DNA of 38,204 nt, taken from the NCBI GenBank assembly GCA_017886705.1, contig JAGHJJ010000099.1:1-38204 (forward strand), in the 5' to 3' direction. A model generated the notes under the pieces. That model was not told the DNA's origin. It did not search any database and saw only the letters and a program-made list of their open reading frames with translations. Position numbers and translations under genes: made by a program. How positions within the stretch are numbered: position 1 is the first letter of the stretch; every line of letters begins with the position of its first letter. Source of the DNA: Bacilli bacterium (lineage in GTDB: Bacteria; Bacillota_I; Bacilli_A; RF39; UBA660). Below, in pieces: positions 137 to 25,455 of the stretch.

Positions 137-2236
137 CTATGGTCTAGGAGGAGGTCCACCAGCACGAGGTGTTCCAATCGTAACGTCAGGATTTTCATGA
201 TAAGCATTGGTATCGGTAGAACTATATTTATCAGGACTCCAACGATTATCACTACGACGGCTTCCACTCTTATCCCAATCCTCAGGACTTCCAGTAATAC
301 GATCATGCAATGTTTGGTGAGCAGAATAACGGCCACTAGCAGCACGATAATCACCACGTTCTCTTGGAGCATCACCCCATCCAATACGTTCTTTTAAACT
401 CCAGCGATGTTCATCTTCAAAGCTAGGCGTAACACGATGAGAATCCGCAAACTTTTTAGCATCTTCATAATGTGTTTTAGCTTGAGCAGCACGTGTTTGT
501 GCCTCAGCCATCTTAGCGTAAGCTCTTTTACGATAATGATCAGATATAACTTGATTTCCTTGAGAATCTACTGTCAATCCACCAGCCATGGCAACTTGAT
601 CCATTTCTTCTTTTGTTAGATTACCTTGTGTCAAGCGATTATAATAATCTTGTAATTCAGATGCTCGATCCTGTGCAGCAAACATATTATTCTTAGCTTG
701 TTTAACACCATTAGCTGTAACTCCATATAACTTACGTGCTCGATTAATTCCAGCATCTCTCATTAGACGATCATTAAGAGAATTAATTAGTCCTCCTTTT
801 GCCTTTGGATCACCAGTTTTAATTTGTGCAGCTAAATCTGCACCCGTTTGCCAAGCAGGTGGTGCCTGTTTACCTTGAGAAGCAGCCATAGCACCAGCAT
901 TCATACTACTTAATGCTCCAGCCATAGCACCTTTTACTCCACCACCACCAACAAAGGTAGCAGCGCCACCAAGGACACCGCTTAATCCAAGATTAGACAT
1001 ACCTGGTCCTTTTAATCCAAGTACATCTTTAATGAACTTAGGAGCCATTCTAGCAAAGAAGAATAAACCTATCCAAATAAAGATACATGAAATAATACCA
1101 ACCATACCGCCAGCCTGATCGATAATGATACCGTTTACCATCATATCTTGAATAATAAAAATTACAAAATATACAATAGCTAAGCGCAAAAACAAATCCA
1201 AATAAGTAGAAGTAAGAGCCTTTACCCAGGAAGCAAACATACCATCTTTAGCTGATTTAGGTTCAACATAACTAATAATAGGAATTGGTGCCAGTAAACG
1301 AAGTATTGCTAATTTAATAGAACGAATCGCAATATCAACAGTAAAAGCAACTAATAAAACTAAAAATATAGCTCCAACAATCAAAGCAAGTATAAAATTA
1401 AAAGCAAATACATACTTAGAGTCTCCAGCAATTAAATTAAGGCCTGGAATACTTGCCTGCCAATTAAGGTTACACTTTGCTTTAACGATTGGATCACTTA
1501 ATAAAATTGTAGGAGAAACATCTAATTGATTATACATATTAATAGCAGTTCTATGATCATTAGTTAAATCATCTCCTTTACAATACCAATTTTCAGGATT
1601 CGTCTCGTCATTATCAACTCTTTCGTCCTCTGTAACCAAATTAATTCTTAAAAAGCCCTTTAAAATTGTCGATGAAAAAATATTAGCAGACTGTTCTAAT
1701 TTTTCCTGTTGAATCTGAGCTTCCGTCTTTCCTGTTTGATCAACCGCATCAGGATTTTCAGCTGTATCTGTAGTACCAAGGATAAGTCGTCCCAGAGTAT
1801 TTCCAGATAAAATTCTATCCTGTAAAGAATATAATGTACCAAATAATAATCCATTATTATTAATATACTTTTCATATGAATTTGCATTTTGTACATCCGG
1901 TACATTAATAGGAACAATAACAGCAAGCATGATTAAAGCAACTACTACCCTAGTAATAATAGAACCAAAACCTTCTTTATTACTCATAAATTTTTCCGGA
2001 TCCATAATACCTTGCAAAATAGTAATAGCTAACTTAAATACCATAAAAACACCAATAATAAGTTGTACTCTGCCATAAAAGTTCTTTATGGTTTCGCTTT
2101 CAAATAATTGTGCACTAGCAACATTAAAGAAAATTTGATACATAAGTCCTAGCAAAAAGTAAACACAGAAGTTAAGAGAAGCCCCTAACGTTCTAACCAA
2201 ATTCCCTACAACACCAGGTTCTAAAGTATCAGTCAT
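137..2236 (-). CDS. VirB6/TrbL-like polytopic channel protein
   Basis: This 699-residue integral membrane protein looks like the VirB6/TrbL class of inner-membrane channel proteins. Hydrophobic segments are visible near residues 20-40, 57-76, 92-110, 277-305, 308-322, 345-365 and 375-396. A large polar loop (about 115-270, two cysteines) lies between the third and fourth segments and is probably outside the cell. From about 405 there is a Gly/Ala-rich stretch, then a hydrophilic tail to 699 with Ala/Gln/Lys-rich helical runs (about 510-640, likely coiled coil) and a Pro/Arg-rich end. Long soluble tails of this kind are common in Gram-positive VirB6-like proteins. It lies between a VirB2-like fusion gene and a PrgI-like gene. 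The family call rests on topology and neighbours, not on a catalytic motif. Confidence 0.65.
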   Translation of the reverse strand: MTDTLEPGVVGNLVRTLGASLNFCVYFLLGLMYQIFFNVASAQLFESETIKNFYGRVQLIIGVFMVFKLAITILQGIMDPEKFMSNKEGFGSIITRVVVALIMLAVIVPINVPDVQNANSYEKYINNNGLLFGTLYSLQDRILSGNTLGRLILGTTDTAENPDAVDQTGKTEAQIQQEKLEQSANIFSSTILKGFLRINLVTEDERVDNDETNPENWYCKGDDLTNDHRTAINMYNQLDVSPTILLSDPIVKAKCNLNWQASIPGLNLIAGDSKYVFAFNFILALIVGAIFLVLLVAFTVDIAIRSIKLAILRLLAPIPIISYVEPKSAKDGMFASWVKALTSTYLDLFLRLAIVYFVIFIIQDMMVNGIIIDQAGGMVGIISCIFIWIGLFFFARMAPKFIKDVLGLKGPGMSNLGLSGVLGGAATFVGGGGVKGAMAGALSSMNAGAMAASQGKQAPPAWQTGADLAAQIKTGDPKAKGGLINSLNDRLMRDAGINRARKLYGVTANGVKQAKNNMFAAQDRASELQDYYNRLTQGNLTKEEMDQVAMAGGLTVDSQGNQVISDHYRKRAYAKMAEAQTRAAQAKTHYEDAKKFADSHRVTPSFEDEHRWSLKERIGWGDAPRERGDYRAASGRYSAHQTLHDRITGSPEDWDKSGSRRSDNRWSPDKYSSTDTNAYHENPDVTIGTPRAGGPPPRP

Positions 2237-2253
2237 CTAAATCACCTCCATTA

Positions 2254-3450
2254 CTACTTAAGTAAACATAACTGGCCATCTGCAGTATAACCTAAAACGT
2301 TTAACATAACACTAACTAAAGTCGGAACTAAGAATAAAGCAACTGCCAACACAAGACGAATCATTAACTTTTTTTCAGCTTTCTTCATTGACTCATCATC
2401 ACTAGCAATAATTGCTTTCGCAAAATCCATGCTACTCAAGATAACAACTAAAATAGGTCCTAAGATTTTAATATAGTTCAATATCTGTTGCAACAACCAA
2501 GCTACAGATTCTTCATTATCAGGTTCTCCTAAAATTCCATTACAAGTCGTAGATTGATTGTAAGAATTTAAGTCTTCTTTTAAATCATCTAAAGTAACAC
2601 TACCATCACTACTTCCATCATCTGGATCACCATATCCAAGGTTGGCATAATTAGAACCAAACTGTTGACCATCCCCTGTACTCAACGTATCATTACTACA
2701 CATATTTCCAGAAGTAGACAATTCATAAGAATAGCCACCCTGCACCCTATTTACACAACGATAAATACTACTAGGACAAGTTAAGGAATTAGAAGAAAAT
2801 ATAGAATCTATCAAGGAACCATTAACAGAAATAGAAAATTTCTCACTACCATTAATAGAACCTGTAATAGCTTCACTTACTGGAACATAAGTAGCTCCAT
2901 CAATAGACCATTCCTTCGTACCATCAGAAAACAATCTAAAATAAGGATAAACATAACTTTGACGGTTATAAAATCCCATAGAAGAACCAGAACAACTAGA
3001 TACAACCTTTTTAGATTTAATTCCACTTTTTTTAGCACTATCTGATAACTTAGGCGAAGCAGAAGCCTGATAACAATTACCAGTATATACACTGCTAGAC
3101 AATGGATAAGGATATACAGTAAATCCAGACTCATTCTGTTGAACAAAAATAGAAGGACAAGTAACCGTATTCTCATCTATAGAGAAAGCATCATAAAACT
3201 TATCACTAAATTGTTCACTATGATACCAGCTTAAATTAGTATTAGCATAATTTTCCCCATCACCAAAAGGAAGCCTAACACTTCCATCTGATAAAACTTG
3301 ATATTTTAATTTAATTTGATTACCACTTACATCAGTAAACTGATAATTACAACTTGCTATTTCATTACCTAAAGCACTCGTATTATATGGAATACAAACA
3401 AAACCCAAGATAAATAATAGTAAAAACAAACGTAACTGTTTCACATTCAT
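2254..3450 (-). CDS. Exported protein with C-terminal VirB2-like membrane hairpin
   Basis: This is a protein of about 398 residues. A signal peptide (KQLRLFLLLFILGF, ending near NTSALG) leads into about 290 polar, Ser/Asn/Gly-rich extracellular residues with roughly nine cysteines. The last ~85 residues form two membrane helices joined by a short charged loop (KAIIASDDESMKKAEKK), ending in one cysteine. This hairpin matches the 118-residue protein at 3520-3876 and the N-terminus of the NlpC/P60 protein at 22943-23785. An in-frame GTG at 3444 has better spacing (8 bases) from the GGAG site than the ATG at 3450, so the true start may be two codons later. Its own promoter lies at 3479-3507 and it heads the T4SS-like operon. 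A surface or tip version of a VirB2-like subunit is an inference. Confidence 0.6.
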   Translation of the reverse strand: MNVKQLRLFLLLFILGFVCIPYNTSALGNEIASCNYQFTDVSGNQIKLKYQVLSDGSVRLPFGDGENYANTNLSWYHSEQFSDKFYDAFSIDENTVTCPSIFVQQNESGFTVYPYPLSSSVYTGNCYQASASPKLSDSAKKSGIKSKKVVSSCSGSSMGFYNRQSYVYPYFRLFSDGTKEWSIDGATYVPVSEAITGSINGSEKFSISVNGSLIDSIFSSNSLTCPSSIYRCVNRVQGGYSYELSTSGNMCSNDTLSTGDGQQFGSNYANLGYGDPDDGSSDGSVTLDDLKEDLNSYNQSTTCNGILGEPDNEESVAWLLQQILNYIKILGPILVVILSSMDFAKAIIASDDESMKKAEKKLMIRLVLAVALFLVPTLVSVMLNVLGYTADGQLCLLK

Positions 3451-3478
3451 CACTCCATATAAACATTTACACAGAATA

Positions 3479-3507
3479 ATTATATCAGAATAAAAAAAAA
3501 ATAGCAA
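3479..3507 (-). promoter_or_regulatory. Promoter of the T4SS-like operon
   Basis: On the minus strand, TTGCTA (3502-3507) and TATAAT (3479-3484) are separated by exactly 17 bases. The -35 box lies inside the 3' arm of the terminator at 3491-3518, and the terminator's U-tract makes up most of the spacer. It drives the VirB2-like fusion gene and presumably the VirB6-like and PrgI-like genes. Confidence 0.7.
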
Positions 3508-3518
3508 ATATTTTGCTA
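3491..3518 (-). terminator. Rho-independent terminator after the VirB2-like gene
   Basis: The minus strand reads TAGCAAA-ATA-TTTGCTA followed by a long run of T. This is a 7-bp stem with a 3-base loop, starting directly after the stop codon of the 118-residue gene. It overlaps the next promoter. Confidence 0.8.
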
Positions 3519-3519
3519 C

Positions 3520-3876
3520 TTAATTTATACTATTCCAACAATCAGCCCAATTTTGAGTATTTGCTTCTGATTGATCAGCGCCTCTACCAACTAAAGACAT
3601 AATAATACTTACTAAAGTGGTAATAAAGAAAATAGCTACTGCATAAATACATCTTTTTATCAATCTACTTTGAGCTTGTTTTACTTCTTTATCATCACTA
3701 GAAATAACAGCTTTACCTAAATCAATAGTACCAAATACAATCAATAAAATTGGAATACCAATTTGTACAATTGGAAATACACCATTTTTTATAATTCTAA
3801 CGATAGGTGCTAAACCACCGCAACCATCATCAACAGTACCATCACCAACATCGCCTATTTGAAATAAATCTAACAT
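3520..3876 (-). CDS. VirB2-like small membrane protein (candidate pilin or channel subunit)
   Basis: This 118-residue protein has a short N-terminal region containing Cys19, a hydrophobic segment at about 33-56, a charged loop (SSDDKEVKQAQSRLIKR, DD at 61-62), a second hydrophobic segment at about 76-97, and a short tail with Cys113. Size and hairpin topology resemble VirB2/TrbC pilins of type IV secretion, and the next operon encodes VirB6-like and VirB3-like proteins. The same hairpin recurs in the 3' part of the 2254-3450 gene and at the N-terminus of the 22943-23785 protein. The gene has its own consensus-like promoter and strong terminator, so it can be expressed alone at high level, as expected of a structural subunit. 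There is no obvious cleavable signal peptide. The VirB2 assignment rests on topology and context. Confidence 0.6.
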   Translation of the reverse strand: MLDLFQIGDVGDGTVDDGCGGLAPIVRIIKNGVFPIVQIGIPILLIVFGTIDLGKAVISSDDKEVKQAQSRLIKRCIYAVAIFFITTLVSIIMSLVGRGADQSEANTQNWADCWNSIN

Positions 3877-3903
3877 AATAACCTCTCCTTCAATATCAAA
3901 TAT

Positions 3904-3932
3904 ATATTATCCTAAAATAATTTGTTTGTCAA
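3904..3932 (-). promoter_or_regulatory. Promoter of the single VirB2-like gene
   Basis: On the minus strand a perfect TTGACA (3927-3932) lies 17 bases from TAATAT (3904-3909). A GAAGGAGAGG ribosome-binding site follows before the ATG at 3876. The perfect -35 box suggests strong expression. Confidence 0.65.
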
Positions 3933-3934
3933 CA

Positions 3935-4918: not shown

Positions 4919-4932
4919 GTAATCACCCTATT

Positions 4933-5412
4933 CTAATTAAATGGCGTAATCAATTTTGTATTACCAGAAACTTGAAAAATTTTCAGATTAGGCATAATCT
5001 TATTAATAATTGGTATATCAACATTTATTTGTGTAGTAATTCTATAATAAACTTGTGTATCATTTTCTGAAATTGAATCATCACCATTACCAGAAACAGT
5101 ATACTTTTTATAACAGTATCCACGCTGACAACCACAAGATCCAGGTTCATCACAACCTTCATAACCAACACTATTTAAATCAAAATCAGGAGCGCTATAC
5201 CCTATTTGAGCAATATAGTCTGATATTTTCTGAACACAAGCATCACTGTCATTATCACAATTACCTTCATATTGTTCAAAAGCAGTAATGATATAGTTTT
5301 TGACACGGAATGCCTTTGTGTAATTAACATTAAATGCTAAATAACCACAAACCAAAAGAAGAAAAACTACAATCATAGCTAAATTGACGATTCCACCATA
5401 AGCATCCCGCAT
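4933..5412 (-). CDS. TadE-like minor pilin / pseudopilin
   Basis: This 159-residue protein has a short N-terminus (MRDAYGG), one hydrophobic helix (about 8-28, IVNLAMIVVFLLLVCGYLAF) and a soluble domain outside the membrane. That is the layout of TadE/TadF pseudopilins, and the gene directly follows the Flp pilin gene. The middle of the domain (about 50-102) holds six cysteines in a compact pattern, including CDEPGSCGCQRGYC, which points to disulfides or metal binding. The C-terminal part (about 118-159) looks β-rich. The gene lies 19 bases after flp and 14 bases before the CpaE-like gene, so all three probably share the flp promoter. Sequence similarity to characterised TadE proteins could not be tested. 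Confidence 0.55.
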   Translation of the reverse strand: MRDAYGGIVNLAMIVVFLLLVCGYLAFNVNYTKAFRVKNYIITAFEQYEGNCDNDSDACVQKISDYIAQIGYSAPDFDLNSVGYEGCDEPGSCGCQRGYCYKKYTVSGNGDDSISENDTQVYYRITTQINVDIPIINKIMPNLKIFQVSGNTKLITPFN

Positions 5413-5431
5413 CTTCTACACCTACCTTACT

Positions 5432-5605
5432 TTATCTTCTCTCAACAACAATGTATCCTGTTGGTTGATCACTAGAAATATTTCCCCATTGTCTATTAAT
5501 CGCACTTTGAATTGTAGGCCACATAACCCAGAAAAATCCAATAACAGCTGCAATAGCAATCAATGTAATAACTGTTAAGTTTAATTCACCAGTTGCTGCT
5601 TTCAT
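5432..5605 (-). CDS. Flp-like major pilin
   Basis: This 57-residue protein begins MKAATGELNLTVITLIAIAA and continues as one long hydrophobic helix to about residue 31, then a polar tail ending YIVVERR. Length, a Gly-Glu pair just before the helix (candidate processing at Gly6/Glu7) and position between tadC and a TadE-like gene all fit a Flp/Tad major pilin. The GE motif resembles the G/xxxxE site of type IV pilins but is not the canonical Flp sequence. An AAAGGGTG ribosome-binding site precedes the ATG at 5605. The gene has its own promoter at 5653-5681 and a 17-base palindrome in its leader. No prepilin peptidase gene is in the window. Confidence 0.7.
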   Translation of the reverse strand: MKAATGELNLTVITLIAIAAVIGFFWVMWPTIQSAINRQWGNISSDQPTGYIVVERR

Positions 5606-5630
5606 CTAATTAAACACACCCTTTCTCAAT

Positions 5631-5647
5631 TGTATATACTATATACA
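5631..5647. promoter_or_regulatory. Perfect 17-base palindrome at the flp transcription start
   Basis: TGTATATACTATATACA reads the same on both strands around its central base. It begins 6 bases downstream of the -10 box of the flp promoter, so it covers the expected transcription start. It could be an operator for a dimeric regulator or a 5' hairpin protecting the pilin mRNA. The sequence does not decide between these. Confidence 0.5.
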
Positions 5648-5652
5648 TTAAT

Positions 5653-5681
5653 ATTATAACAACATAATTTATAATTAACAA
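5653..5681 (-). promoter_or_regulatory. Promoter of the Flp pilin gene
   Basis: On the minus strand, TTGTTA (5676-5681) and a perfect TATAAT (5653-5658) are 17 bases apart. The pilin ATG follows at 5605. This gives the pilin, the TadE-like and the CpaE-like genes a transcript independent of the long upstream operon. Confidence 0.75.
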
Positions 5682-5709
5682 CATTTTTGTAATTTTTTAC
5701 AACTTATAT

Positions 5710-6495
5710 TTACATATTAAACATCATCATCATAGAAATTAATATAATAACCATAGTACCAGCACCAGTAACAACAAGCATTACTAATGTCTGATTTTCC
5801 ATATGATTAAGTCTTTCTTTATATTTTGTTTCACGTGCTTTGTTTTGAAGGTTAGATACAGTTCTAGAAAACATCATCAATCTTTCTTGTTTTCTTTCTT
5901 GTGAACCTAAACCTAAACGATACAATAAACGCATCATACGCATAGAATCACGTACGGGATAAGTATTAGCAAATTCCATATAAGGATCAATAGTAGAATC
6001 ACCAGCATTAATACGTTCAATTAATTTACGAAGTCCAGGTTTAAAAATATCTGGAGCATCATCAATAGACTTACCTAAGGCAACAGGAACTGTATAATGT
6101 TGAATTAAAATTTCCAAACTCTTTAGATAATATGGTAGCATAACATCAATATCATGCAAATGTGCTTTATAAAAAGTTTTCAAATTCATATATGGGACTT
6201 TAAAAATTAAAGCAGCTACTACAACACAAAATACAACATTAAGAAATGATAACTGATTTAAGAAAATAAATAAAAATATAATTCCCATAATAACAGCATA
6301 AAATATTCTCTTTCTAAATAACTGGTTAGGATCAACATCTTCCCCGTATTTAGCATAAACTAAAAAATTATAATCATCTTCTCTTAAAATATCAAAATAT
6401 TTCTCGTTATCTGCAATAAACTTATTTTTATCAATGGTATTATTATATATCAAAACAAATATAATAATAGCTCCAACAATAACAATCTCTACCAT
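5710..6495 (-). CDS. tadC: TadC-like inner-membrane platform protein (T2SS F domain)
   Basis: This 261-residue polytopic protein is the second of a pair of GspF-fold proteins that form the membrane platform of Tad pili. A hydrophobic segment opens the protein (about 3-17), a second region spans about 69-103, a soluble helical domain covers about 105-225 (the T2SS F domain, with the GLGSQERKQERLMMFSRT helix), and a final membrane helix lies at about 236-259. It starts within the stop codon of tadB (TAATG overlap), so the two are translationally coupled. The order tadA-tadB-tadC matches canonical Tad operons. Confidence 0.75.
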   Translation of the reverse strand: MVEIVIVGAIIIFVLIYNNTIDKNKFIADNEKYFDILREDDYNFLVYAKYGEDVDPNQLFRKRIFYAVIMGIIFLFIFLNQLSFLNVVFCVVVAALIFKVPYMNLKTFYKAHLHDIDVMLPYYLKSLEILIQHYTVPVALGKSIDDAPDIFKPGLRKLIERINAGDSTIDPYMEFANTYPVRDSMRMMRLLYRLGLGSQERKQERLMMFSRTVSNLQNKARETKYKERLNHMENQTLVMLVVTGAGTMVIILISMMMMFNM

Positions 6496-7406
6496 TATTC
6501 AGCACCTACATTCTCATTATAATATTTCTCACCCTTTAATAAGAAAATAGTATTAACAATTAAAACCGCATGTAATAAAAATTTTACATACCAACGATCT
6601 AACATAATCAAATAAGTCTCTCTACCCAACAAATATTGTACTAACATAACCATTAAATAAAGCATAATACCAAATTGTAAAAATGATTTATGAAAAGATG
6701 CTCTTTCAATACGATCTCGATAAACACTTTCAACAAGCATGTCAATATCAAGCTGCATATTATCTAAAGATTCCATTGAGTTTCTAGCACCCTCCTTAGT
6801 AATCTGTAAAAATAACTGGTGCATATTTTTTACAATGTAGTAAGGATATAACTGGCTCATATAAGTCAATGCTTCATCAATACTTCCATTCTGATAAGCA
6901 AGTTCTATCATATGATCAACATCACTTTTAACAGGATCCTCTAAAATTCCAGAATTACGGACTCCTTCTAAAGCCTTAACAAAAGACTGTGTAGTTGCAA
7001 ACTCCATAATAGTATTAGAAGTATAAACCTGAATTTGCTCAAAAATAAACTCACTGTAAACACGTTTACATCTTAAATAAGATAAATACGGAACAAACAT
7101 AATAACAACAATAATATAAACTAGTGAAATAAATAAGTTATAAAAATATAAGTAACTAACTACTCCTGTAAAGGATGCCATAACAATAATTTGAATTAAA
7201 TATTGCCTTGCAGTATATTCTTGTCCCAATTCCTTTGTTTTTTCACGAACAACCTTAAAAGAATAAGGAGCAAATTTATCATAAACACCTTGTACTTGAC
7301 TAGTAATAAACTTACCAATATTTTGTCCTTTATAATTACGATAAAGAAATAAAACAACAACTAGTACAATTAGAAAGACTAACTCTTCTATATACATAAA
7401 ATTCAC
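6495..7406 (-). CDS. tadB: TadB-like inner-membrane platform protein (T2SS F domain)
   Basis: This 303-residue protein has an N-terminal membrane helix (about 6-22), a hydrophobic region at about 74-108, a cytoplasmic helical F domain (about 115-235, including ITKEGARNSMESLDNMQLD) and two C-terminal membrane helices (about 243-262 and 275-292). This is the TadB layout, and the gene lies 6 bases after the TadA ATPase gene and overlaps tadC. TadB and TadC together are thought to convert ATPase movement into pilin assembly. The name rests on gene order and topology. Confidence 0.75.
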   Translation of the reverse strand: MNFMYIEELVFLIVLVVVLFLYRNYKGQNIGKFITSQVQGVYDKFAPYSFKVVREKTKELGQEYTARQYLIQIIVMASFTGVVSYLYFYNLFISLVYIIVVIMFVPYLSYLRCKRVYSEFIFEQIQVYTSNTIMEFATTQSFVKALEGVRNSGILEDPVKSDVDHMIELAYQNGSIDEALTYMSQLYPYYIVKNMHQLFLQITKEGARNSMESLDNMQLDIDMLVESVYRDRIERASFHKSFLQFGIMLYLMVMLVQYLLGRETYLIMLDRWYVKFLLHAVLIVNTIFLLKGEKYYNENVGAE

Positions 7407-7412
7407 TCCTCT

Positions 7413-9020
7413 CTATTCTAAATTATCTAATGAAGAAAAATCTACAGTAGAAGGCAAACTAATCGTTTGATTTATAGATTGATTATCATTTGCAGATGGA
7501 ACTAATCCAGACATATTATCAGCGTGAGATGCAGTAGGCATATTACTAACATCAGTAACATTTTGATTAACAGAAGCTTCTACAGAAGCCGTAGGCGATT
7601 CAATATTTGAAACCGTAACTACTGGCGTTGAAGCAACAACTTCTGCATCTTGTACTGGAACAGAGATAGCATCGTTACTTTCACTATTCACCTCAGCCGG
7701 TTGAATGGTTACTTCTCCAACAGAAATTGGTAAATCAACAGAACCACCACTTTGGCCTTCTTCTTCACTAGCATCATCAGAAGTAGAATTATCAGTTTCT
7801 ATTTGAATATCATTAGCAATATTAGAAGAAGTAGCAGAATCATTAGAAACATTAACATTTTCAGCAGTATCAACATTAGTATTAGTATCGCTATTATCAC
7901 TAGTATCGTGATGATTCTCCATATATTCTTCTCTTTCAAGATCATCCTTAAAAGGTAAATCATCATTCAAACGTTGAGTAATAGAACTAATGTCAATATT
8001 TTGATTCTCTAAGTATTCAATTAAATGAGGACTAGGTTTACGCATAACAGGTTCTTGACCAAATAATTTTTGATATATAATCCTACATTGTGGTTTATTA
8101 TTTTCATCAACATAAAATTCACAAACCTCATCAACTTCTCTATGGAATTTACCCTTTTCCTTACTATAGTAGGCCTTAATATGCACACCAATTTGAATAT
8201 ATCGATAAATTGTATTTAAAAATTGATTAACATCTAAATCAGTCTCCATCAAACTATACATACGATAAGGAATAGCCGAAGCTTTATCTGCATGGATAGT
8301 AGATAAAATATTATGTCCTGATGAAATAGAGTTACGTACCGCCGAAACAGCCTCAGCACTACGAACCTCGGATAATAATATCCATTTAGGATTCTGACGC
8401 ATACAAGTAACCAAAACGTCTGTATAACTAGCAACATTATTAGTTTTCATAGCAACAATATCACGTTGTGGAAAGATACGATCCAAGTGTAACTCCAACG
8501 TATCCTCAATAGTAATAATTTTCTCATCCGTACGTGTATGAGCAGCAAGATATTTAACAAACTCAGTCTTACCAGAACCAGTCTCTCCACAAACGATAAT
8601 GTTACAATGACCTTCAACACACTTAATTAAAATATCATGAATATCTTGAGTAAAGTAATCATCCTTCAACAACTTATCCTTTTCAAGTCTAATCTTAGCA
8701 GGAGTTTTACGAATAACCATAGCAATTCCATTGGTAGCAATAGAAGGATGAACAAAGTTCAAACGTAATTCAGTAGATTCAGCATCCAAAAATGGTTTAG
8801 CATTATTGAATGTTGTTCCCATGACATTAGAACATTGAAAAGCAAGCTTTTCAATAAATTCAGGAGTAAGACCTTGAACTTCTACTCGCAAAGATCCTTG
8901 TGTTAAAGATCGAACCCAGATTTGCCCATTATTATCAAAAGAAATATCTGTAATATCATCATTATCTAATAAAGGTCGTAATGGCCCAAAATCAAGTTTA
9001 TCAAAAATATTTTCGTTCAT
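7413..9020 (-). CDS. tadA: TadA/CpaF-type assembly ATPase with unusual acidic tail
   Basis: This 535-residue ATPase belongs to the VirB11/CpaF superfamily, which powers Tad pili and related secretion. An N-terminal domain (about 1-120) is followed by the Walker A GETGSGKT at 145-152, an acidic strand IITIEDTLELHL at 168-179, a Walker B-like WILLSEVR at 213-220 and the His box GHNILSTIHA at 235-244. The catalytic core therefore looks intact. From about 370 to 535 there is a low-complexity extension rich in Ser, Asn, Asp, Thr and Val that contains no Lys, Arg, Cys, Trp or Tyr. Ordinary CpaF/TadA proteins end soon after the core. An AAGGAG site precedes the ATG. It is first of the tadA-tadB-tadC set. 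Confidence 0.9.
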   Translation of the reverse strand: MNENIFDKLDFGPLRPLLDNDDITDISFDNNGQIWVRSLTQGSLRVEVQGLTPEFIEKLAFQCSNVMGTTFNNAKPFLDAESTELRLNFVHPSIATNGIAMVIRKTPAKIRLEKDKLLKDDYFTQDIHDILIKCVEGHCNIIVCGETGSGKTEFVKYLAAHTRTDEKIITIEDTLELHLDRIFPQRDIVAMKTNNVASYTDVLVTCMRQNPKWILLSEVRSAEAVSAVRNSISSGHNILSTIHADKASAIPYRMYSLMETDLDVNQFLNTIYRYIQIGVHIKAYYSKEKGKFHREVDEVCEFYVDENNKPQCRIIYQKLFGQEPVMRKPSPHLIEYLENQNIDISSITQRLNDDLPFKDDLEREEYMENHHDTSDNSDTNTNVDTAENVNVSNDSATSSNIANDIQIETDNSTSDDASEEEGQSGGSVDLPISVGEVTIQPAEVNSESNDAISVPVQDAEVVASTPVVTVSNIESPTASVEASVNQNVTDVSNMPTASHADNMSGLVPSANDNQSINQTISLPSTVDFSSLDNLE

Positions 9021-9054
9021 ATGCCCAACTCCTTCTTATTCTTCATAAATAACT

Positions 9055-9858
9055 CTACATACCTTCATCCCAATAAGTAACAGTATTAATCCAATCACGT
9101 AAAGTAGTACTACTAATTTCCAAGTCTCCTGGTTCATCTTTCAAACTTTCATTTGTAGGAACTGGAACAAGCTCAGAGTCATAAGTTTGTAGATAACTAG
9201 CTTTCTTTAATAAAAGATAATGTTCTTCTGGAACTGCAAACACAATCATTGCCGGTGTTCTTTGCTCATCCAAATTAGTAAATACTGGTTGACCAGAAGA
9301 ATCTTTAACAGCCAAAACTTTAACATTTTCAACAAGTTTTCCATACATAATTTCATCATTAGTTGCAGTTTGACCTTCAGCCACTTTATGAACAGCTTTT
9401 AAATAAATATCAATATAATTACCAGGATAAATTGAGTTACCATAAGTACTTTCAATATTAACTGGCATGTTATATAAAACATAACCTTTTGGATAATCCA
9501 AAATAATATTTGCAGGTAATTGTTCTTTCTCTACGACTTGACGAGTAAAAAACAAACTTCCTTCTGGAATTAAAGTATCTGCATTAGAATACTTATCAAT
9601 AACTTCAGCCTGATTCGTAATAACATCATCACTAACCATAGAAGGTGGAACTTGCATAGTTCCCACCATATCCTCCGTAATTTGTGTTCCCGGATTAATT
9701 TGCTCTCTAGCATATGGAACATTAATAGGGTTTACTGCTGCATTAACACGCATAGTATAAGCAATATAAAGCACTATGACAGCAAGAACAGCACCAACAA
9801 CAGTAACTGTATTTTTATTTGATAAAAACTTCTTTATTCCGTTAGTAAAATTTCCCAT
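9055..9858 (-). CDS. cpaB: CpaB/RcpC-like pilus assembly protein (SAF domain)
   Basis: This 267-residue protein has one N-terminal membrane helix (about 17-36), a SAF domain (about 43-110, with NVPYAREQINPGTQITEDM and IPEGSLFFTRQVV) and a second β-rich domain (about 120-225) typical of CpaB/RcpC. In Gram-negative Tad systems CpaB links the pilus to the envelope. In this Gram-positive setting it probably acts in or just outside the membrane. The start has a GAGGAGAGG site and the gene lies just upstream of tadA in the same operon. Confidence 0.8.
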   Translation of the reverse strand: MGNFTNGIKKFLSNKNTVTVVGAVLAVIVLYIAYTMRVNAAVNPINVPYAREQINPGTQITEDMVGTMQVPPSMVSDDVITNQAEVIDKYSNADTLIPEGSLFFTRQVVEKEQLPANIILDYPKGYVLYNMPVNIESTYGNSIYPGNYIDIYLKAVHKVAEGQTATNDEIMYGKLVENVKVLAVKDSSGQPVFTNLDEQRTPAMIVFAVPEEHYLLLKKASYLQTYDSELVPVPTNESLKDEPGDLEISSTTLRDWINTVTYWDEGM

Positions 9859-10341: not shown

Positions 10342-13284
10342 TTACTCATCCCCCTGTCCTTCATTATTTATACCAGGTTTACCTTTAACCACAACAGCAT
10401 CACCAATTACATTCCATAAATCACTATAATAAACAGTAACTCCATTTTTGACTCTAGCATCTCCATCAAAATCCGTATATTTCTTATTTCTATTAAATTC
10501 ACGAATCTTAGCTAATGTCTCAGTATCTAAAACAAACTTATAATCTACATAAGTATCTCCATTATATATAGTAGACTGTCTTTGTTGAATATTATTGATT
10601 AAAGATAATGGATCAATTTTATAATCTGGATTCTTAGCATTTAATGTCGTTAATATAGAAGTATCCTCAGAATCAATTCCTAATGTCCAATTGTATCCTG
10701 GTTGACGTCCAACACCAACAATAGATGGCGTATTATCTTCAGATTTATTATCAGTTTCAGGGAACATATCAGAAGTATCTATAATTCTAAATGCGTAATC
10801 TCTAGTAGAAATCGTTGTTGGAGGATCTTCTTCATCACCAGGAGGATTACCACCAGGAGGATCACCACCAGGAGGATCCAAACAACATCCATTTTGATCA
10901 AGATCACAAACTTCATTTCTAAGTGCATAGAAGCATTCGAAATCAAAGTTCCATCCAAAATATCCAAAGTCTGTAGTAGAAGCATGAATATTATAATTAA
11001 TACTATTAGAGATTTGATCTGGTGGATAGCAACTATCTCCTACTTCACTCCATTCCCACCAAATAGTGTTAACACTCTTAGCATCTAATGGAACACAGAA
11101 TTTATCTTCTTTTAAATGCCATGCCTTATTACCTGATTTATCAACAAAAGTAATATCTCCTGTTTTATTATTAATCCAAGTACCAGGGAAACTCCACTCT
11201 GCTTGATACCAATTTCTATTATTTGAATCAACATAGCATCCATCATATCCAAGATAATCTTTATCATCACTCAAGAAAATCTCTGTACGACCAGGACTAG
11301 CGGTTTCTTGACCTTTACCAAGACTAGGTAATTTTGATGGTTCACTAGAATTATAAGGGAAAGAAATGGTTTCTTTCTTTTCAGCACCATTAACATCATG
11401 TGTATAATCAACACTGATTTCAAAATAAGCAGTCTTAGTAGTACAACTAGCAGAAGCTTGACATTGAGAAATAGCCTGATTATATTTCTTCATATTTTGT
11501 ACAGTATCTTTAGCAGCATCTTCTTCATTCATATAACTATTTGCAGTACAATCATTCTTTTCCCAAAAGCAATTATCACTACAAAAGTTACCATTACCTC
11601 TATTACGACGTTTAAATCCATTCTCACGAGCAGCATATCTACCATGATCAGTACAAGTTCTTGATGCTTCAACATCATGATAATAACGAGCATAAGTGTA
11701 AAAATCTTCAGCAGATACCCAAACAATAGAACCATTTTCCCATTGATAACGTCCTGAATAACCAGGGAAACCAGCCGTATCACAAGAATCAGTAGCAGCA
11801 TTATAACCTAATCTTTTTGCTTGAACATCATAATGAAAAGCTAATGGATCAAGCGAATTATCTGATTTTCCATAGACTTCTTGATAACACTGATTACTAC
11901 ATTTTGTAGAATATTTTCCACCATCACATTCTGCAATACATTGTTCAAACTCATCATTTGGTCCACCTTGATGTTCATGACCTGCTGGATTATCAGATCC
12001 ACTAGAATCTTGGCATACAGGAGTTGGAGAACATATACCAGGAGTCGTAGGAGCATGAATACCAGAAATATCAGATTCACATACTACTCTACTAGTAACC
12101 TTAACTTTATATTCAAAACAAAGTCCGGCTTTGGAAGCAACTGGAGGTCCATATTCCACAACAACAGATTCTTCACACGTTCTTTTACAAGCTCCTCCTG
12201 AAACAGTCTCTGTATTACCAGGATGATCAATATCGGTACCTGTATAATGATATGTATAATTAACACCCTCAGAATCTTCTTCTTTAGCATAATAATAATC
12301 TTTATTAACATAATAAGCGTCCCCTGTAGTACCAGTTGCTCTTTTCTGCCAATCACAAACCATGCCAAAACGAGAATCATCTAAACTACCATCTGAAACT
12401 CTACTTGTATAATCATGACCTAAAGCCAAAGCCTTATTTTTTGCATCATTAAATGCTGCCATAAAATCTTCAGATACTGGAGTTTGATCATAATTACCAC
12501 TTGCTTCTTTTAAACGATAAATATCAATTGCCGAACGAATCATAGAAGCTACTTGTTTTTCAGTATAGTTAAATTGAACATTACTAGGACTAAAACAATA
12601 AGAAAGAACATTTTCATATTCATTTTTACCATTAATATCTACTGCAGCATAATTATACTTTTCAAACTCACTCTGACTAACACCTGCACCAGATAAAGAT
12701 GAACTATATTGATTATAGTTAGTACCATCTCTAAAAGCAGCACAGATACCATTATAATTATTATTTGAAAAAGTTATATTTGTAATAGATTGATATAAAT
12801 TCAAAGTAACTGTTTCAGTATAAGTTCCACCTTGTTTACCCTGTTGTTCTAACGCTTCTGCATCTGCGTAAGAAAGACATTTATCATCAGTCTCCACTAA
12901 TCGCAGATTTAACATAACATCTGCAGTTACATTCTGATAATGAAATGAAATAGGATGACCAGGAGTAATTACTCCAGCTTTTGTAGGATCCTCAACAAAA
13001 GCTGATGGCATACTTACAGCTCCTACAACAAATGCTCCACGATCAACACTAATAGTAACAGTTCTATTAGCTCCGAGTTTAACGGCTATATTATAATAAC
13101 CAGTCATATGTGAACAATTTTCTCCAGTAGTAGTTTTATTTGCTTTTACATCTCTACGCTCAACTTCTGCATCTGAAGAAGTATCTGAAACAAAACTCAT
13201 CATTTCGCGAAAACCAAAAAAAGCAACAAATACCAACACAATAACCAAAAAAGCCCTTTTTATAATCTTCTTATGCTTTTCCAT
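10342..13284 (-). CDS. Very large cysteine-rich exported protein of the pilus operon
   Basis: This protein of about 980 residues has a basic N-terminus (MEKHKKIIKR), one hydrophobic helix (about 12-28) and an extracellular remainder. The ATG at 13284 is preferred because a GGCGGGGAAAAG site precedes it; it overlaps the sortase stop by 14 bases. About 29 cysteines are spread over the first ~800 residues, often paired (GACKRTC, GICSPTPVC, KCSNQC, FCSDNC). A Gly/Pro hinge (CCLDPPGGDPPGGNPPGDEE, about residues 795-815) then leads into a cysteine-free C-terminal domain of about 165 residues. There is no LPXTG-like sorting signal or C-terminal anchor, so the N-terminal helix may be the anchor. It could be a pilus-associated adhesin or tip protein, which is an inference from size, export and position. 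No known family is recognised. Confidence 0.6.
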   Translation of the reverse strand: MEKHKKIIKRAFLVIVLVFVAFFGFREMMSFVSDTSSDAEVERRDVKANKTTTGENCSHMTGYYNIAVKLGANRTVTISVDRGAFVVGAVSMPSAFVEDPTKAGVITPGHPISFHYQNVTADVMLNLRLVETDDKCLSYADAEALEQQGKQGGTYTETVTLNLYQSITNITFSNNNYNGICAAFRDGTNYNQYSSSLSGAGVSQSEFEKYNYAAVDINGKNEYENVLSYCFSPSNVQFNYTEKQVASMIRSAIDIYRLKEASGNYDQTPVSEDFMAAFNDAKNKALALGHDYTSRVSDGSLDDSRFGMVCDWQKRATGTTGDAYYVNKDYYYAKEEDSEGVNYTYHYTGTDIDHPGNTETVSGGACKRTCEESVVVEYGPPVASKAGLCFEYKVKVTSRVVCESDISGIHAPTTPGICSPTPVCQDSSGSDNPAGHEHQGGPNDEFEQCIAECDGGKYSTKCSNQCYQEVYGKSDNSLDPLAFHYDVQAKRLGYNAATDSCDTAGFPGYSGRYQWENGSIVWVSAEDFYTYARYYHDVEASRTCTDHGRYAARENGFKRRNRGNGNFCSDNCFWEKNDCTANSYMNEEDAAKDTVQNMKKYNQAISQCQASASCTTKTAYFEISVDYTHDVNGAEKKETISFPYNSSEPSKLPSLGKGQETASPGRTEIFLSDDKDYLGYDGCYVDSNNRNWYQAEWSFPGTWINNKTGDITFVDKSGNKAWHLKEDKFCVPLDAKSVNTIWWEWSEVGDSCYPPDQISNSINYNIHASTTDFGYFGWNFDFECFYALRNEVCDLDQNGCCLDPPGGDPPGGNPPGDEEDPPTTISTRDYAFRIIDTSDMFPETDNKSEDNTPSIVGVGRQPGYNWTLGIDSEDTSILTTLNAKNPDYKIDPLSLINNIQQRQSTIYNGDTYVDYKFVLDTETLAKIREFNRNKKYTDFDGDARVKNGVTVYYSDLWNVIGDAVVVKGKPGINNEGQGDE

Positions 13285-14077
13285 TCTTTTCCCCGCCTTC
13301 CATAATATCTTTAACCTCTTCATACTTTTCAGTTGGAACCACATCATAGTTTAACTTTAACTCACCTTTACGAACTAATCTTGCATCTACCTTAAACTCA
13401 ATATTATTATAATGTCCATACATTCTAGTACAAGTAACCAAAGATAAAATTTTATCATTTTCATCAACATCTATATCAAACTGAAAGAGACTATCATCAA
13501 GAGACTGCTTAATATACTGTCTCATTTCTTTTTTACTTAAGTTCTCTTTAGTATACTTAGGAATATCATCATCTTCTGGATAAGAAACAGCAAATATTTT
13601 ATAAATATAATCTTCACCATTTGCTGTATATTGAATATATTTATTTTCTTTTACAAAATCTAAATAAGTAAAACTCATCAATTGTTCAAACCTTGTATGT
13701 CTACTATCAGCAACCAAAGGATTAGAAGAAAGATTTAAAATGTTATGTCCACTAACCGTAATTTGATTTAAAAGTTCATCAGCATCCACTTCATTCCAAA
13801 GAAAGCTATCTGTCTTATCTGAAAAGTCATAATAGGGAGCATAAATAATAGGAAAATCAATATTTGTACCCTGAACCCTAAGCCATCCTGTAGTAGTGTA
13901 ATCTTCTGTATCATGCTTTGCATACTTTTCTATTTTTTCCACTCTAGACTCTATTGGATAATAATCATAGAACAACAAGAACAAGACAGCACATAGTAAA
14001 CACAAAAAAGAAAGAATTCCTAAAAATAGAAATAACTTCTTTTTGCGCATAATAATCTTCTTACTCCGCATCTTCAT
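13271..14077 (-). CDS. Class B-like sortase
   Basis: This membrane-anchored cysteine transpeptidase has about 268 residues. A basic N-terminus and one long hydrophobic helix (about 14-37) precede the sortase fold. The segment GWLRVQGTNIDFPIIY, the catalytic His in VSGHNILN (His111), the Cys in LSLVTCTR (Cys216) and the Arg in VDARLVRKGE (Arg233) form the expected triad and resemble class B sortases. The ATG at 14077 has the best spacing from the AGGTGAT site; upstream GTG and ATG codons are possible. The gene lies between the Ig/repeat protein and the giant cysteine-rich protein and overlaps the latter. No protein in the window carries a clear sorting signal, so the substrate is unknown: pilin linkage or anchoring of a protein encoded elsewhere. 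Confidence 0.85.
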   Translation of the reverse strand: MKMRSKKIIMRKKKLFLFLGILSFLCLLCAVLFLLFYDYYPIESRVEKIEKYAKHDTEDYTTTGWLRVQGTNIDFPIIYAPYYDFSDKTDSFLWNEVDADELLNQITVSGHNILNLSSNPLVADSRHTRFEQLMSFTYLDFVKENKYIQYTANGEDYIYKIFAVSYPEDDDIPKYTKENLSKKEMRQYIKQSLDDSLFQFDIDVDENDKILSLVTCTRMYGHYNNIEFKVDARLVRKGELKLNYDVVPTEKYEEVKDIMEGGEKNGKA

Positions 14078-14090
14078 ATGCATCACCTAC

Positions 14091-22130: not shown

Positions 22131-22153
22131 GAAAAAAGCAAGACCACTTGCTT
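22124..22153 (-). terminator. Terminator of the ireB-to-DUF3298 operon
   Basis: The minus strand reads AAGCAAG-TGGT-CTTGCTT and then a long T/C-rich tract. The stem starts at the stop codon of the DUF3298-like gene. Confidence 0.85.
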
Positions 22154-22934
22154 AATTAGAAATCTTAAACTCATAACTTTCATCATCAAAAAACTCTTCT
22201 TCAGAAAATACAGAATAAATACTAAATCCACGGTAAGCAATCAAACTACCATCTCTAACATAGTAATGTACATCATCCATATAATCACTAACACCACGCC
22301 AGTTCAAAAAGCACTGATAATTACATTCTTCTGCAATAAGATATCCCTCTTCTACTTCCTTCTGATAATACTCTTCAAATTGCTTTTGAATTATCGAAGA
22401 AACATCATCCTTAGTAACTTGAAATAACGATAATACTTCATCATCATCCATCAAAGTCTGTGTAGTTAAATCAAAATTATAAGTATGAAATTCTGACTCA
22501 GGAAAAGAATAACCATCACTATAATCTTTCATCTTAATTAATACAGACAACACTTCTCCATTAACTTGAGAATCATATACAAACAAGTTATCTTGATTCT
22601 CTAAAAATGACTCAGCATACTCTTCGATAGCTTGATTAACGCGTCTAGCATCAGGACTATCAATATTAATAAAAGGAATCTCATTACGCATATTCTGTCT
22701 ATTATAAGAACTAGACTGTGTATATACTAAATATTGATCAGTATCTACCTTAATATAATTATAATTACTATAATAATTTTTATATAAATAATATCCTACT
22801 AATAAAATAATTAAAATAACCAATCCTAACCAAGGCAATATCTTTTGAAAACGAAAAGGAAGTCTTGAAAAATGAAAATGACTAGTACGCCTTACTTTAG
22901 GTTCTTCTTTTTCTTCTTGGACAACTCCAAACAT
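22152..22934 (-). CDS. Membrane-anchored DUF3298/RsiV-like protein
   Basis: This 260-residue protein has a basic cytoplasmic N-terminus (about 1-33), one membrane helix (about 34-51) and an extracellular domain. The outer domain runs from NEIPFINIDSPDARRVNQAI, a start typical of DUF3298/DUF4163-type domains found in RsiV and related surface proteins, through a segment with two cysteines (EECNYQCFL), to the C-terminus. It lies 8 bases after the VirB2-like/NlpC-P60 fusion gene and 66 bases before trhP1. The two genes are inserted together in an otherwise conserved tRNA-modification neighbourhood, so they may act together at the cell wall. No enzymatic motif is visible. Confidence 0.6.
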   Translation of the reverse strand: MFGVVQEEKEEPKVRRTSHFHFSRLPFRFQKILPWLGLVILIILLVGYYLYKNYYSNYNYIKVDTDQYLVYTQSSSYNRQNMRNEIPFINIDSPDARRVNQAIEEYAESFLENQDNLFVYDSQVNGEVLSVLIKMKDYSDGYSFPESEFHTYNFDLTTQTLMDDDEVLSLFQVTKDDVSSIIQKQFEEYYQKEVEEGYLIAEECNYQCFLNWRGVSDYMDDVHYYVRDGSLIAYRGFSIYSVFSEEEFFDDESYEFKISN

Positions 22935-22942
22935 AAGCCCTC

Positions 22943-23785
22943 CTAATTAACACCATTTATTCTCATAATACCTAAAATACTTCGATATTTATAAGTACTA
23001 GAAACCTTAACTCCCCCGCTTGGATATGGTCTAGAATTACTAGCATGGACCATTTCCTCACCATTACCTGTAAGTATTCCTACATGGCCATCATACATAA
23101 CAACATCCCCTGCTTTAATATTTCCGTCGGTAACTAAAGTATAAGTATCAGTAGCCGCCCATTGGGCATAAGTTGTTCTAGGTAATTGAATACCAAAATG
23201 AGAAAACACCCCGGAAACAAAGCCACTACAATCAGTAGGTGTATAAGGCTTTTCACCATTCCAAATACCACCATAACGATACTCTTGCCCTACAAATTCC
23301 ATAGCATAACTAACAATTGCCCTACCAGTAAGACTACCTGTACTAGAATCACCTGGACTAAGATTAGGAAGTTGAGTACTCAACATAAAAGATTGTGGCT
23401 GTTTATTTGATGTAGAAACATAAGTACTATTTGACTCTTTCAATAATTCTCTTGATATTTTAGCAGTATCCCAGCAAGCACCCAATTGAAAAGTCTCAAT
23501 ATCAGATGGCAATAAACTCAAAGATAAATCTACTAAATAAGGAACAAAGAAACAAAGAAGTGCTGCAATAAACTTATTTAATAAACTCTTAGTCTTCTTT
23601 TTATCATCGGGATTTACCAACAACTGTGTAAATTGTATAGCCAGTGCTACCATCAATATAATAGGTGCTATTAACTGTATTAAATCTAACACTTTTCTAG
23701 AAACATCTAAAATTGTAAGTAAACCATAATCTGTACAACAAGTACCTAAAGCTTCACTACAATCTAAAATCTGAAAAAACCTCAC
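22943..23785 (-). CDS. VirB2-like hairpin fused to NlpC/P60 peptidoglycan hydrolase
   Basis: This protein has about 280 residues. Its first ~115 form a membrane hairpin (segments about 32-56 and 70-92) with a DD-containing loop (NPDDKKKTKS) flanked by cysteines, matching the VirB2-like proteins at 3520-3876 and the end of 2254-3450. After a Ser-rich linker (about 115-150) comes an NlpC/P60 domain with catalytic Cys186 in TDCSGF, His234 in DGHVGI and His247 in VHASNS, so it should be an active γ-D-Glu-diamino acid endopeptidase. The GTG at 23785 is preferred because AGAGGGTGA has proper spacing to it; a GTG at 23794 is also in frame. Type IV secretion systems need a wall hydrolase to pass through peptidoglycan, and this protein would supply it. 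Confidence 0.75.
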   Translation of the reverse strand: MRFFQILDCSEALGTCCTDYGLLTILDVSRKVLDLIQLIAPIILMVALAIQFTQLLVNPDDKKKTKSLLNKFIAALLCFFVPYLVDLSLSLLPSDIETFQLGACWDTAKISRELLKESNSTYVSTSNKQPQSFMLSTQLPNLSPGDSSTGSLTGRAIVSYAMEFVGQEYRYGGIWNGEKPYTPTDCSGFVSGVFSHFGIQLPRTTYAQWAATDTYTLVTDGNIKAGDVVMYDGHVGILTGNGEEMVHASNSRPYPSGGVKVSSTYKYRSILGIMRINGVN

Positions 23786-23797
23786 CGCAATCACCCT

Positions 23798-24391
23798 CTA
23801 TTTTTTAGTACTAACAGAAATACCATCACCAACATTAAAAAATTCTGTATCATATCTACTATTTGATTTTAAATAAGCAATATAATCCTTAATTTTACGA
23901 ACTAAAGCACGTAAATTCTTACTCTTAATTTCATACTCTTCTTTTTCAACTAAACCATGAAATTTCAAATTATCTGTAATAATAGCGCCATCTGTTTTTA
24001 AATTACGTTCAAAATGTTCAAAAAACTTAATATTTTGAGCCTTAGCAGCATCAATAAAAATCAAATCAAACTCTTCATCTAATTTAACATTGAATGCATC
24101 ATTATAAATAAGCGTAATTCTATCTTCTAATTCAAAAGCTTTTACGTTCTTTACTGCTTCTAAATATCTTTTTTCATCTCTCTCAATGGTAGTAATTTTA
24201 ACATTAGGGTGAACTAATGCCATCATAATAGCGGAATACCCTATAGCAGTACCAATTTCTAATACATTCCTAACATGTTTTTTTAATATAAAAGTAGTTA
24301 AAAAATCAATACCCTCATCTACCATAATAGGAACATTATTTTTTTTAGCATACTCTTTGATTTCTCGAATCATAGAATAATTACCTACCAT
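23798..24391 (-). CDS. trmR: tRNA 5-hydroxyuridine methyltransferase TrmR
   Basis: This protein of about 197 residues is an O-methyltransferase of the Rossmann class. The SAM-binding motif is VLEIGTAIGYSA near residues 43-54, the acidic residue follows in TTIERDEKR, and the DxxFIDAAKA motif lies near 110, as in the metal-dependent COMT family. B. subtilis YrrM (TrmR) converts 5-hydroxyuridine 34 of tRNA to 5-methoxyuridine. The same order mltG-trmR and the nearby trhP1/trhP2 support that role. The ATG at 24391 is chosen because GGGTGA has a 6-base spacing to it. The gene overlaps mltG by 7 bases. Confidence 0.85.
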   Translation of the reverse strand: MVGNYSMIREIKEYAKKNNVPIMVDEGIDFLTTFILKKHVRNVLEIGTAIGYSAIMMALVHPNVKITTIERDEKRYLEAVKNVKAFELEDRITLIYNDAFNVKLDEEFDLIFIDAAKAQNIKFFEHFERNLKTDGAIITDNLKFHGLVEKEEYEIKSKNLRALVRKIKDYIAYLKSNSRYDTEFFNVGDGISVSTKK

Positions 24392-25455
24392 ATCCAATCA
24401 CCCTTATCTTTAATTTCTTGCACCATGGCTTCGTGCTCCGCTAAGGTATTAGTATAAAATATATTTCCATTTTTGTCAGCAACAAAATACAAATATGTAT
24501 TATCCACTGGTTCAATACTAGCCTCTAAACTAGATAAACTAGGATTACAAATCGGTCCAATAGGCATCTTTCCTCCCATGTTAGAAGCTCTAGTATTATA
24601 AGGATTAATTGTTGCAAACTGAGCAGTTGTCAAATCACTAGTCATTGGATATTGTAATGCATAATATGTAGTAACATCACTACCAAGATTCATATTAGCT
24701 GCTAATCTATTTTCAAAAATACCAGCAATCATCTTACGATTATCAGTATTTGTACCTTCTAGCTCTACCATAGAAGCCATAGTCATATAATAATGAACAT
24801 TATTAGAAATCCTATCTTTATATGGCTCTAATTCACTCTCCATCTCATCTAACATCTTCTCAACAATAGTATTAACGGTAACATTCTTATTTTCAAATTG
24901 ATAAGTATCTGGTGCTAAATATCCTTCCAATGGATAATAAATTCCCTCTTGAAAAATAGAATCTGTTAAAAACCAATACTTAGTCTTTAATTCCTCTAGA
25001 TAAGTCCTATCATTCATCATAGCCAGTACTTCTGACTGTGTATGATTAGTAGCATCAGCAATCTCATTAGCATAATCCGTAATCCGCTCTCCCTCTTTAA
25101 AGGTAATAGTAATAGCATCAGGATTATATTTATTACCAGAAATAAGAGCATCAATAATCTCTTCCATAGACATATCTTTACTAAGTTGATAAGTAGATGC
25201 TTGTAAATAAGAACCTCTCTTAGTCTTAACCGTAATCACAAACACGAACTCATTACGAATCAAATCTTTTTCTTTTAAAATTTTAGCAATCCCAGAAACA
25301 CCAGTTCCATTAGGAATAACAACTTCTACTGCATTAGAATTACTTTTATCCACAGGACTTGCTAAAAACATATAAACTGCCGCTAGTAAAATTAAAAAAG
25401 AACCCGATAATACCAGAAATATCAATAATGGCTTTGGTCTTCTTCTCACTACCAT
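24385..25455 (-). CDS. mltG: Endolytic murein transglycosylase MltG
   Basis: This 356-residue protein has an N-terminal membrane helix (about 10-32). A LysM-like subdomain follows (about 42-120, VEVVIPNGTGVSGIAKILKE), then the YceG/MltG catalytic domain. The catalytic Glu is in MASMVELEG (Glu231), followed by the family stretch ENRLAANMNLGSDVTTYYAL. MltG cuts nascent glycan strands near the divisome and elongasome and sets glycan length. Here it sits in the conserved order ireB-ruvX-DUF1292-mltG-trmR. A small hairpin between it and the upstream DUF1292 gene could reduce its expression. Confidence 0.93.
   Translation of the reverse strand: MVVRRRPKPLLIFLVLSGSFLILLAAVYMFLASPVDKSNSNAVEVVIPNGTGVSGIAKILKEKDLIRNEFVFVITVKTKRGSYLQASTYQLSKDMSMEEIIDALISGNKYNPDAITITFKEGERITDYANEIADATNHTQSEVLAMMNDRTYLEELKTKYWFLTDSIFQEGIYYPLEGYLAPDTYQFENKNVTVNTIVEKMLDEMESELEPYKDRISNNVHYYMTMASMVELEGTNTDNRKMIAGIFENRLAANMNLGSDVTTYYALQYPMTSDLTTAQFATINPYNTRASNMGGKMPIGPICNPSLSSLEASIEPVDNTYLYFVADKNGNIFYTNTLAEHEAMVQEIKDKGDWIW

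Follow-up and report, generated by a model that had tools for sequence, protein, structure and literature searches.

Can a pilin of a type IV secretion system (T4SS) carry a working enzyme and, if so, to what end? The question is raised, and made testable by the small size of the protein concerned, by one gene in the stretch of 38,204 nucleotides analysed here (the window), which comes from an uncultured member of the Bacilli order RF39. A preliminary description presented this gene as the fusion of a VirB2-like hairpin with an NlpC/P60 wall hydrolase, and proposed that it opens the cell wall at the site of secretion.

A pilin-type hairpin joined to an NlpC/P60 domain

The gene and its parts are as follows.

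22943..23785, minus strand: fusion gene, T4SS-pilin-type hairpin, linker and NlpC/P60 hydrolase, 280 aa
23441..23785, minus strand: hairpin module, residues 1-115
23336..23440, minus strand: linker, residues 116-150, disordered and fast-evolving
22946..23335, minus strand: NlpC/P60 domain, residues 151-280, with C186/H234/H247

The open reading frame is present on the minus strand as it had been described, starting from a GTG codon at 23785 (with an alternative in-frame GTG at 23794) and ending with the stop at 22943, so that the product counts 280-283 aa. Specifically, the N-terminal module is a two-transmembrane hairpin with a short basic loop and an N-out/C-out charge pattern: TM1 spans residues 32-50 approximately, followed by the loop NPDDKKKTK and by TM2 at about residues 73-91, the whole being flanked by Cys 9/16/17 and Cys 104, with an amphipathic helix behind. 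The AlphaFold2 model of the hairpin (mb0ab76e15bea) has a mean pLDDT of 79, with values of about 90 in the helices.

The C-terminal half matched the Pfam family NLPC_P60 (PF00877) with 56.8 bits, well above the cut-off of 23, and its best Foldseek match was 8er5 (E 1e-7). Of the catalytic residues, C186 and H234 do not vary across 17 orthologues and H247 hardly does, in agreement with the active-looking hydrolase initially proposed. Orthologues of the whole protein were found in 13 genomes of the same genus at 64-90% identity, and in another genus at about 50%. Between genomes of the target genus, dN/dS was 0.05-0.11 for the hairpin, 0.10-0.24 for the enzyme and 0.25-0.75 for the linker. In conclusion, selection acts on both the hairpin and the enzyme halves, and purifying selection is stronger on the hairpin. 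Such a constraint goes beyond the need of a plain anchor and suggests a protein partner, although the explanation that we favour below names none.

The hairpin is related to the hairpins of the T4SS locus

The secretion locus of the window comprises the following genes.

137..2236, minus strand: VirB6/TrbL-like translocon protein
2254..3507, minus strand: T4SS-locus protein of 417 aa (398 from ATG), a C-terminal hairpin behind a large N-terminal ectodomain
3520..3876, minus strand: T4SS-locus stand-alone hairpin, 118 aa
5710..9858, minus strand: Tad part, TadC, TadB, CpaF-type ATPase and CpaB-like protein (T2SSE, RcpC/SAF), TadB and TadC being putatively assigned by position and size

The T4SS core genes, namely the VirB6-like gene and those of the two VirB2-like hairpins, run straight into the Tad set, forming a hybrid chromosomal locus at 137-9858. 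In relatives, the order of the T4SS genes is two hairpin proteins, the VirB6/TrbL-like protein, two small genes and a VirB4-type ATPase of 596 aa; some genomes of the order keep this core without CpaF. The VirB4 gene of the window genome lies on a separate contig (G000:C67:1-1326), where it is cut by the contig end, and VirB4 of the 596-aa type was detected in 346 of the 386 genomes of the order (E <= 1e-110).

Compared with the T4SS hairpins of its own genome, the target matched the 417-aa ORF with an E value of 2e-5 and the 118-aa protein with 8e-5. As a gauge of false matches, the hairpin profile used in a PDB search returns GPCRs at E 7e-5; these pairwise values are therefore insufficient, because transmembrane composition alone can yield such scores. 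For the same reason, the target's match to the Pfam family T4SS_pilin (E 5e-4) was not accepted as proof on its own. We thus relied on a profile built from 65 T4SS-locus hairpins, with zero fusions included, and on 261 control ORFs with at least two transmembrane segments. This profile gave the target 48.3 bits (E 8e-14), while the best of the membrane controls reached 14.7. In addition, 81 of the 83 fusion-type proteins scored above the best control, the other two being VirB6-like. The helix placement, the P/S-D-D loop and the flanking cysteines of the target line up with those of the T4SS-locus hairpins.

As for the Pfam model itself (PF18895), the target scored 20.4-23.4 bits, below the cut-off of 26.6, which is exceeded by its orthologue in G002 (27.9 bits) and by paralogues (up to 39.8); among 26 hairpins, 21 have a match to PF18895 (best E 2e-10) and 12 to NF045849, a pilin-like conjugal transfer family of mycoplasma conjugative elements. 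Fold searches were unspecific: the hairpin model gave no Foldseek match at E<=0.001, a solved VirB2 structure was absent from the fold matches of both the hairpin and the full model, and the hairpin model retrieved generic helical hairpins (VIA rows) with Z <=6.6.

All together, these comparisons show, at the level of the primary sequence, that the N-terminal hairpin of the target is homologous to the hairpins of the T4SS locus, in line with the match that the preliminary description had noted between residues 1-115 and the two VirB2-like proteins.

A similar protein was observed in G040, which belongs to another family of Bacilli outside the order. Here, an ICE-like locus encodes a T4SS_pilin protein of 511 aa (L298:6642-8177), in which an N-terminal ectodomain precedes a C-terminal T4SS_pilin hairpin, the layout of the window's 417-aa protein; no enzyme domain was recognised in it.

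Different enzymes are carried behind a conserved hairpin

The target fusion is no one-off: a single uncultured order of gut Bacilli has a large family of such proteins. Fusion hairpins share flanking cysteines, an invariant proline and a basic P-D-D loop. In 66 distinct fusions, the upstream Cys, the Pro and the downstream Cys are all invariant. In 80 of 81 fusions, cysteines occur on both sides of the hairpin and the loop holds more basic residues than either flank (mean K+R 5.4 versus 1.5 and 1.1), as expected if both ends, and hence the enzyme, lie outside.

The inventory of cargo, in which one protein can match two families, counts NLPC_P60 (13), CHAP (8), GDSL/SGNH (5), the C39-like C39_2 (4), Amidase_3 (3), M23 (2) and VanY (2), with single cases of NAGPA, glucosaminidase, S11, GH99, YkuD (L,D-transpeptidase) and a PHB-esterase-like alpha/beta-hydrolase; a metallo-beta-lactamase-like cargo in L132 was judged by eye. 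A tree of 168 hairpins, which are short and leave it partly unresolved, contains well-supported sister hairpins that bear unlike enzymes: SGNH and NAGPA (support 99), SGNH and CHAP+C39 (99), CHAP and SGNH (96). One further clade with a support of 99 groups nine hairpins, mostly from G115, with at least five kinds of enzyme. Hairpin genes number up to 16 per genome in G066 and 11 in G115. In conclusion, the cargo has been exchanged behind a conserved hairpin.

In G066, four tandem hairpin-fusion genes (L240:1755-7436) have near-identical front ends and different enzymes. The window genome itself encodes a second fusion, in which the same hairpin precedes an SGNH/GDSL hydrolase (L006:2360-3271, G000:C106); in several genomes of the same genus, the close relative of this gene product consists of a hairpin alone (about 135 aa).

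The fusion lies in a housekeeping gene run

The target gene is not encoded with the T4SS core (VirB4/VirB6); it maps within an mltG-yrrM-U32 housekeeping cluster, and the secretion locus lies about 19 kb away. Its neighbours are the following.

22152..22934, minus strand: p260, one transmembrane segment and an ectodomain of 200 aa; next gene, 8 bases downstream of the fusion
23798..24397, minus strand: O-methyltransferase, which we take to be YrrM-like; directly upstream of the fusion
24385..25455, minus strand: endolytic transglycosylase, presumably MltG/YceG-like; upstream, in the same run as the fusion

In most genomes of the order that were looked at, the gene of a U32 peptidase directly follows yrrM. 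In the target clade, the fusion, usually together with p260, is inserted between the two. The window's genus and G028 have an enzyme of the NlpC/P60 type at this site; in G115, which belongs to the genus of G028, the enzyme is a different one, CHAP-type to judge from its motif, and the hairpin and linker of this protein are 47% identical to those of the target. In G001 and G013, the same position is occupied by a tandem of Amidase_3 and NlpC.

The product of p260 matched no Pfam family. Its gene is kept next to the fusion in relatives, on one side or the other (compare the window with L042 and L069), a pattern suggestive of two proteins that work together. We regard p260 as a candidate regulator, inhibitor or immunity protein.

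Occurrence of the fusions and of the secretion system

The spread of the hairpin was sampled within the Bacilli, related pilins being common in Patescibacteria as well. At E <= 1e-6, 40 of the 43 genomes sampled from the order gave a match to the hairpin profile; about 253 Bacilli from outside the order gave none. A mobile origin was considered and rejected: phage records gave no match to the hairpin, and the matches in plasmid records fall on the NlpC half.

The search for fusions in genomes with and without the Tad/T4SS locus gave a divided answer. Genomes of g59, g80 and g100 have no strong CpaF match, keep VirB6/VirB4 and carry fusions of the CHAP or C39 type. Therefore, the fusions do not depend on the Tad ATPase, and CpaF, absent from hairpin-bearing genomes that retain the VirB6/VirB4 core, was discarded as a marker of the secretion locus.

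Concerning the T4SS, hairpins of any kind, the system's own included, co-occur with VirB4 over 146 genomes (125/1/11/9, Fisher p 2e-8). VirB4 and hairpins are both missing from ten genomes, whose relatives in the same genus often have both (G091 versus G084). A missing VirB4 was not equated with a missing T4SS, since the locus runs off the contig in G069 and G098 and the corresponding stretch is masked by N in G170. A rough count of the fusions found them in 12 of the 38 T4SS-positive genomes classified and in 0 of 9-10 genomes having neither hairpins nor VirB4. Their absence from the ten genomes is weak evidence, because only about a third of the classifiable T4SS-positive genomes carry fusions at all; these counts were therefore set aside as a test of T4SS dependence, which also finds a counter-argument in G113 and G150, where a fusion is present and neither VirB4 nor a strong CpaF match was detected, gaps in the assemblies being possible. 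In G113, a second hairpin gene lies beside a NifS-like gene, outside any T4SS locus. Other hairpin matches on contig C1 of G113 (L123), which are membrane proteins beside pcrA/ligA, were judged spurious.

Discussion

The data described above are best accounted for, and probably so, by a portable N-out/C-out membrane module of T4SS-pilin origin that holds enzymes on the outer face, the target being an NlpC/P60 surface enzyme. The module would descend from the pilin-type hairpins of the lineage's chromosomal T4SS. Judging from the charge pattern, both ends of the hairpin would lie outside and the basic loop inside, exposing to the wall whatever domain is fused behind, and a disulphide between the flanking cysteines probably closes the hairpin on the outer face. 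In the target, the putative cargo would be a D,L-endopeptidase of the NlpC/P60 kind, exported and kept within reach of the wall by a flexible tether. Its most likely role is the trimming or remodelling of peptidoglycan in growing cells, as suggested by the tethered enzyme being encoded together with MltG and p260.

The initial proposal had the fusion act as a pilin or pore subunit that brings its own hydrolase to the secretion site, equivalent to VirB1. Its structural part stands, that is, the fusion and the outside-type charge pattern; the purpose of opening the wall at that site, which we hold to be unlikely, does not. It is true that the hairpin family is shared with T4SS-locus proteins, that the wall is the target of most cargo, and that the known VirB1 proteins of Gram-positive bacteria are all membrane-anchored with extracellular enzymes (PMC12857230). 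However, the gene sits in a distant housekeeping cluster, the T4SS loci of relatives encode a large VirB1-like hydrolase of their own (an M23/lysozyme/NlpC protein), part of the cargo is not directed at the wall (SGNH, GH99, NAGPA, alpha/beta-hydrolase), and fusions occur in G113 and G150. Convergence or composition could instead have produced the likeness to T4SS pilins in an ordinary two-transmembrane anchor, and the GPCR matches of hydrophobic profiles, as well as the unspecific fold searches, would be compatible with this. Nevertheless, such an origin appears highly improbable given the clear gap from the 261 membrane controls, the conservation of the loop, the Pro and the two Cys, and a hairpin more constrained than the enzyme it carries.

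Whether the hairpins also enter the T4SS is a separate matter; we consider this possible, though not the expected case. By extension, and more tentatively, the T4SS of the order might assemble hairpin subunits, part of them enzyme-bearing, into a surface structure, a pilin scaffold on which exchangeable enzymes active on wall and glycans would be displayed or delivered. If true, the structural subunits of a secretion machine would be enzymes themselves. Tail proteins of type VI secretion systems carry fused effectors and, by analogy, the T4SS might take up the fusions and present or deliver the enzymes to neighbouring cells, with p260 as immunity protein. The lineage-specific expansions with swapped cargo in G066 and G115, a cargo list resembling wall-attacking effectors and the presence of p260 in either gene order would fit such a role. 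We nonetheless find it quite unlikely: the target is vertically kept in a housekeeping run under strong purifying selection; moreover, p260 has no known immunity domain and delivery is purely hypothetical.

The membrane-held surface enzyme that we favour combines features of several known systems. Its catalytic fold and Cys/His/His site are those of NlpC/P60 endopeptidases such as MepS, LytE, RipB and 8er5. Export of MepS, LytE and RipB relies on ordinary signal peptides, LysM or SH3 domains are often present, and we know of no NlpC/P60 endopeptidase that is carried on a pilin-type hairpin. With the models PF18895 and NF045849 (Mbov_0395 family), the target shares the two-transmembrane hairpin with a basic loop; these describe short stand-alone subunits, whereas the target has an enzyme behind the hairpin and a gene outside the T4SS locus. 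The VirB1 proteins of Gram-positive bacteria (PrgK, TraG of pIP501, Orf14/CwlT of Tn916) are membrane-anchored extracellular wall hydrolases, as the target is by predicted topology, but they are multidomain proteins (SLT/CHAP/LytM) encoded in T4SS operons (PMC12857230), while in the target a single NlpC/P60 domain follows the pilin-type hairpin. Patescibacteria, also monoderm, have T4SS pilins that belong to the PF18895 kind (PMC12102498). As in the order studied here, their VirB2-like proteins are several and divergent, and this model recognises part of them; unlike the hairpins of this order, they are not known to include enzyme fusions. According to a 2025 review, VirB2 is absent from Gram-positive T4SS except in Patescibacteria (PMC12857230), in contrast with the pilin-type (VirB2-like) proteins found here in Bacilli, where a chromosomal T4SS combines them with VirB4 and VirB6. 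A literature search, with most subscription journals outside its reach, found no description of a pilin-enzyme fusion, and we regard the fusions as known domains in a new and systematic combination.

A pilin-related surface module common to at least 12 enzyme families across one uncultured gut order would represent an additional route for monoderm surface enzymes, with a module related to secretion pilins in place of a signal peptide or an ordinary anchor. For most of RF39 a peptidoglycan wall is predicted, and most lyt/cwl endopeptidases are predicted to have disappeared in the ancestor of the group to which the order belongs (PMC10868615); the hairpin-borne enzymes could have replaced the lost ones.

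Finally, the interval that separates the Tad genes from the housekeeping run encodes a 1001-aa protein with a Cys-rich ectodomain and a class B sortase (10342-14086), which are possibly a sorted surface component of the T4SS/Tad apparatus.
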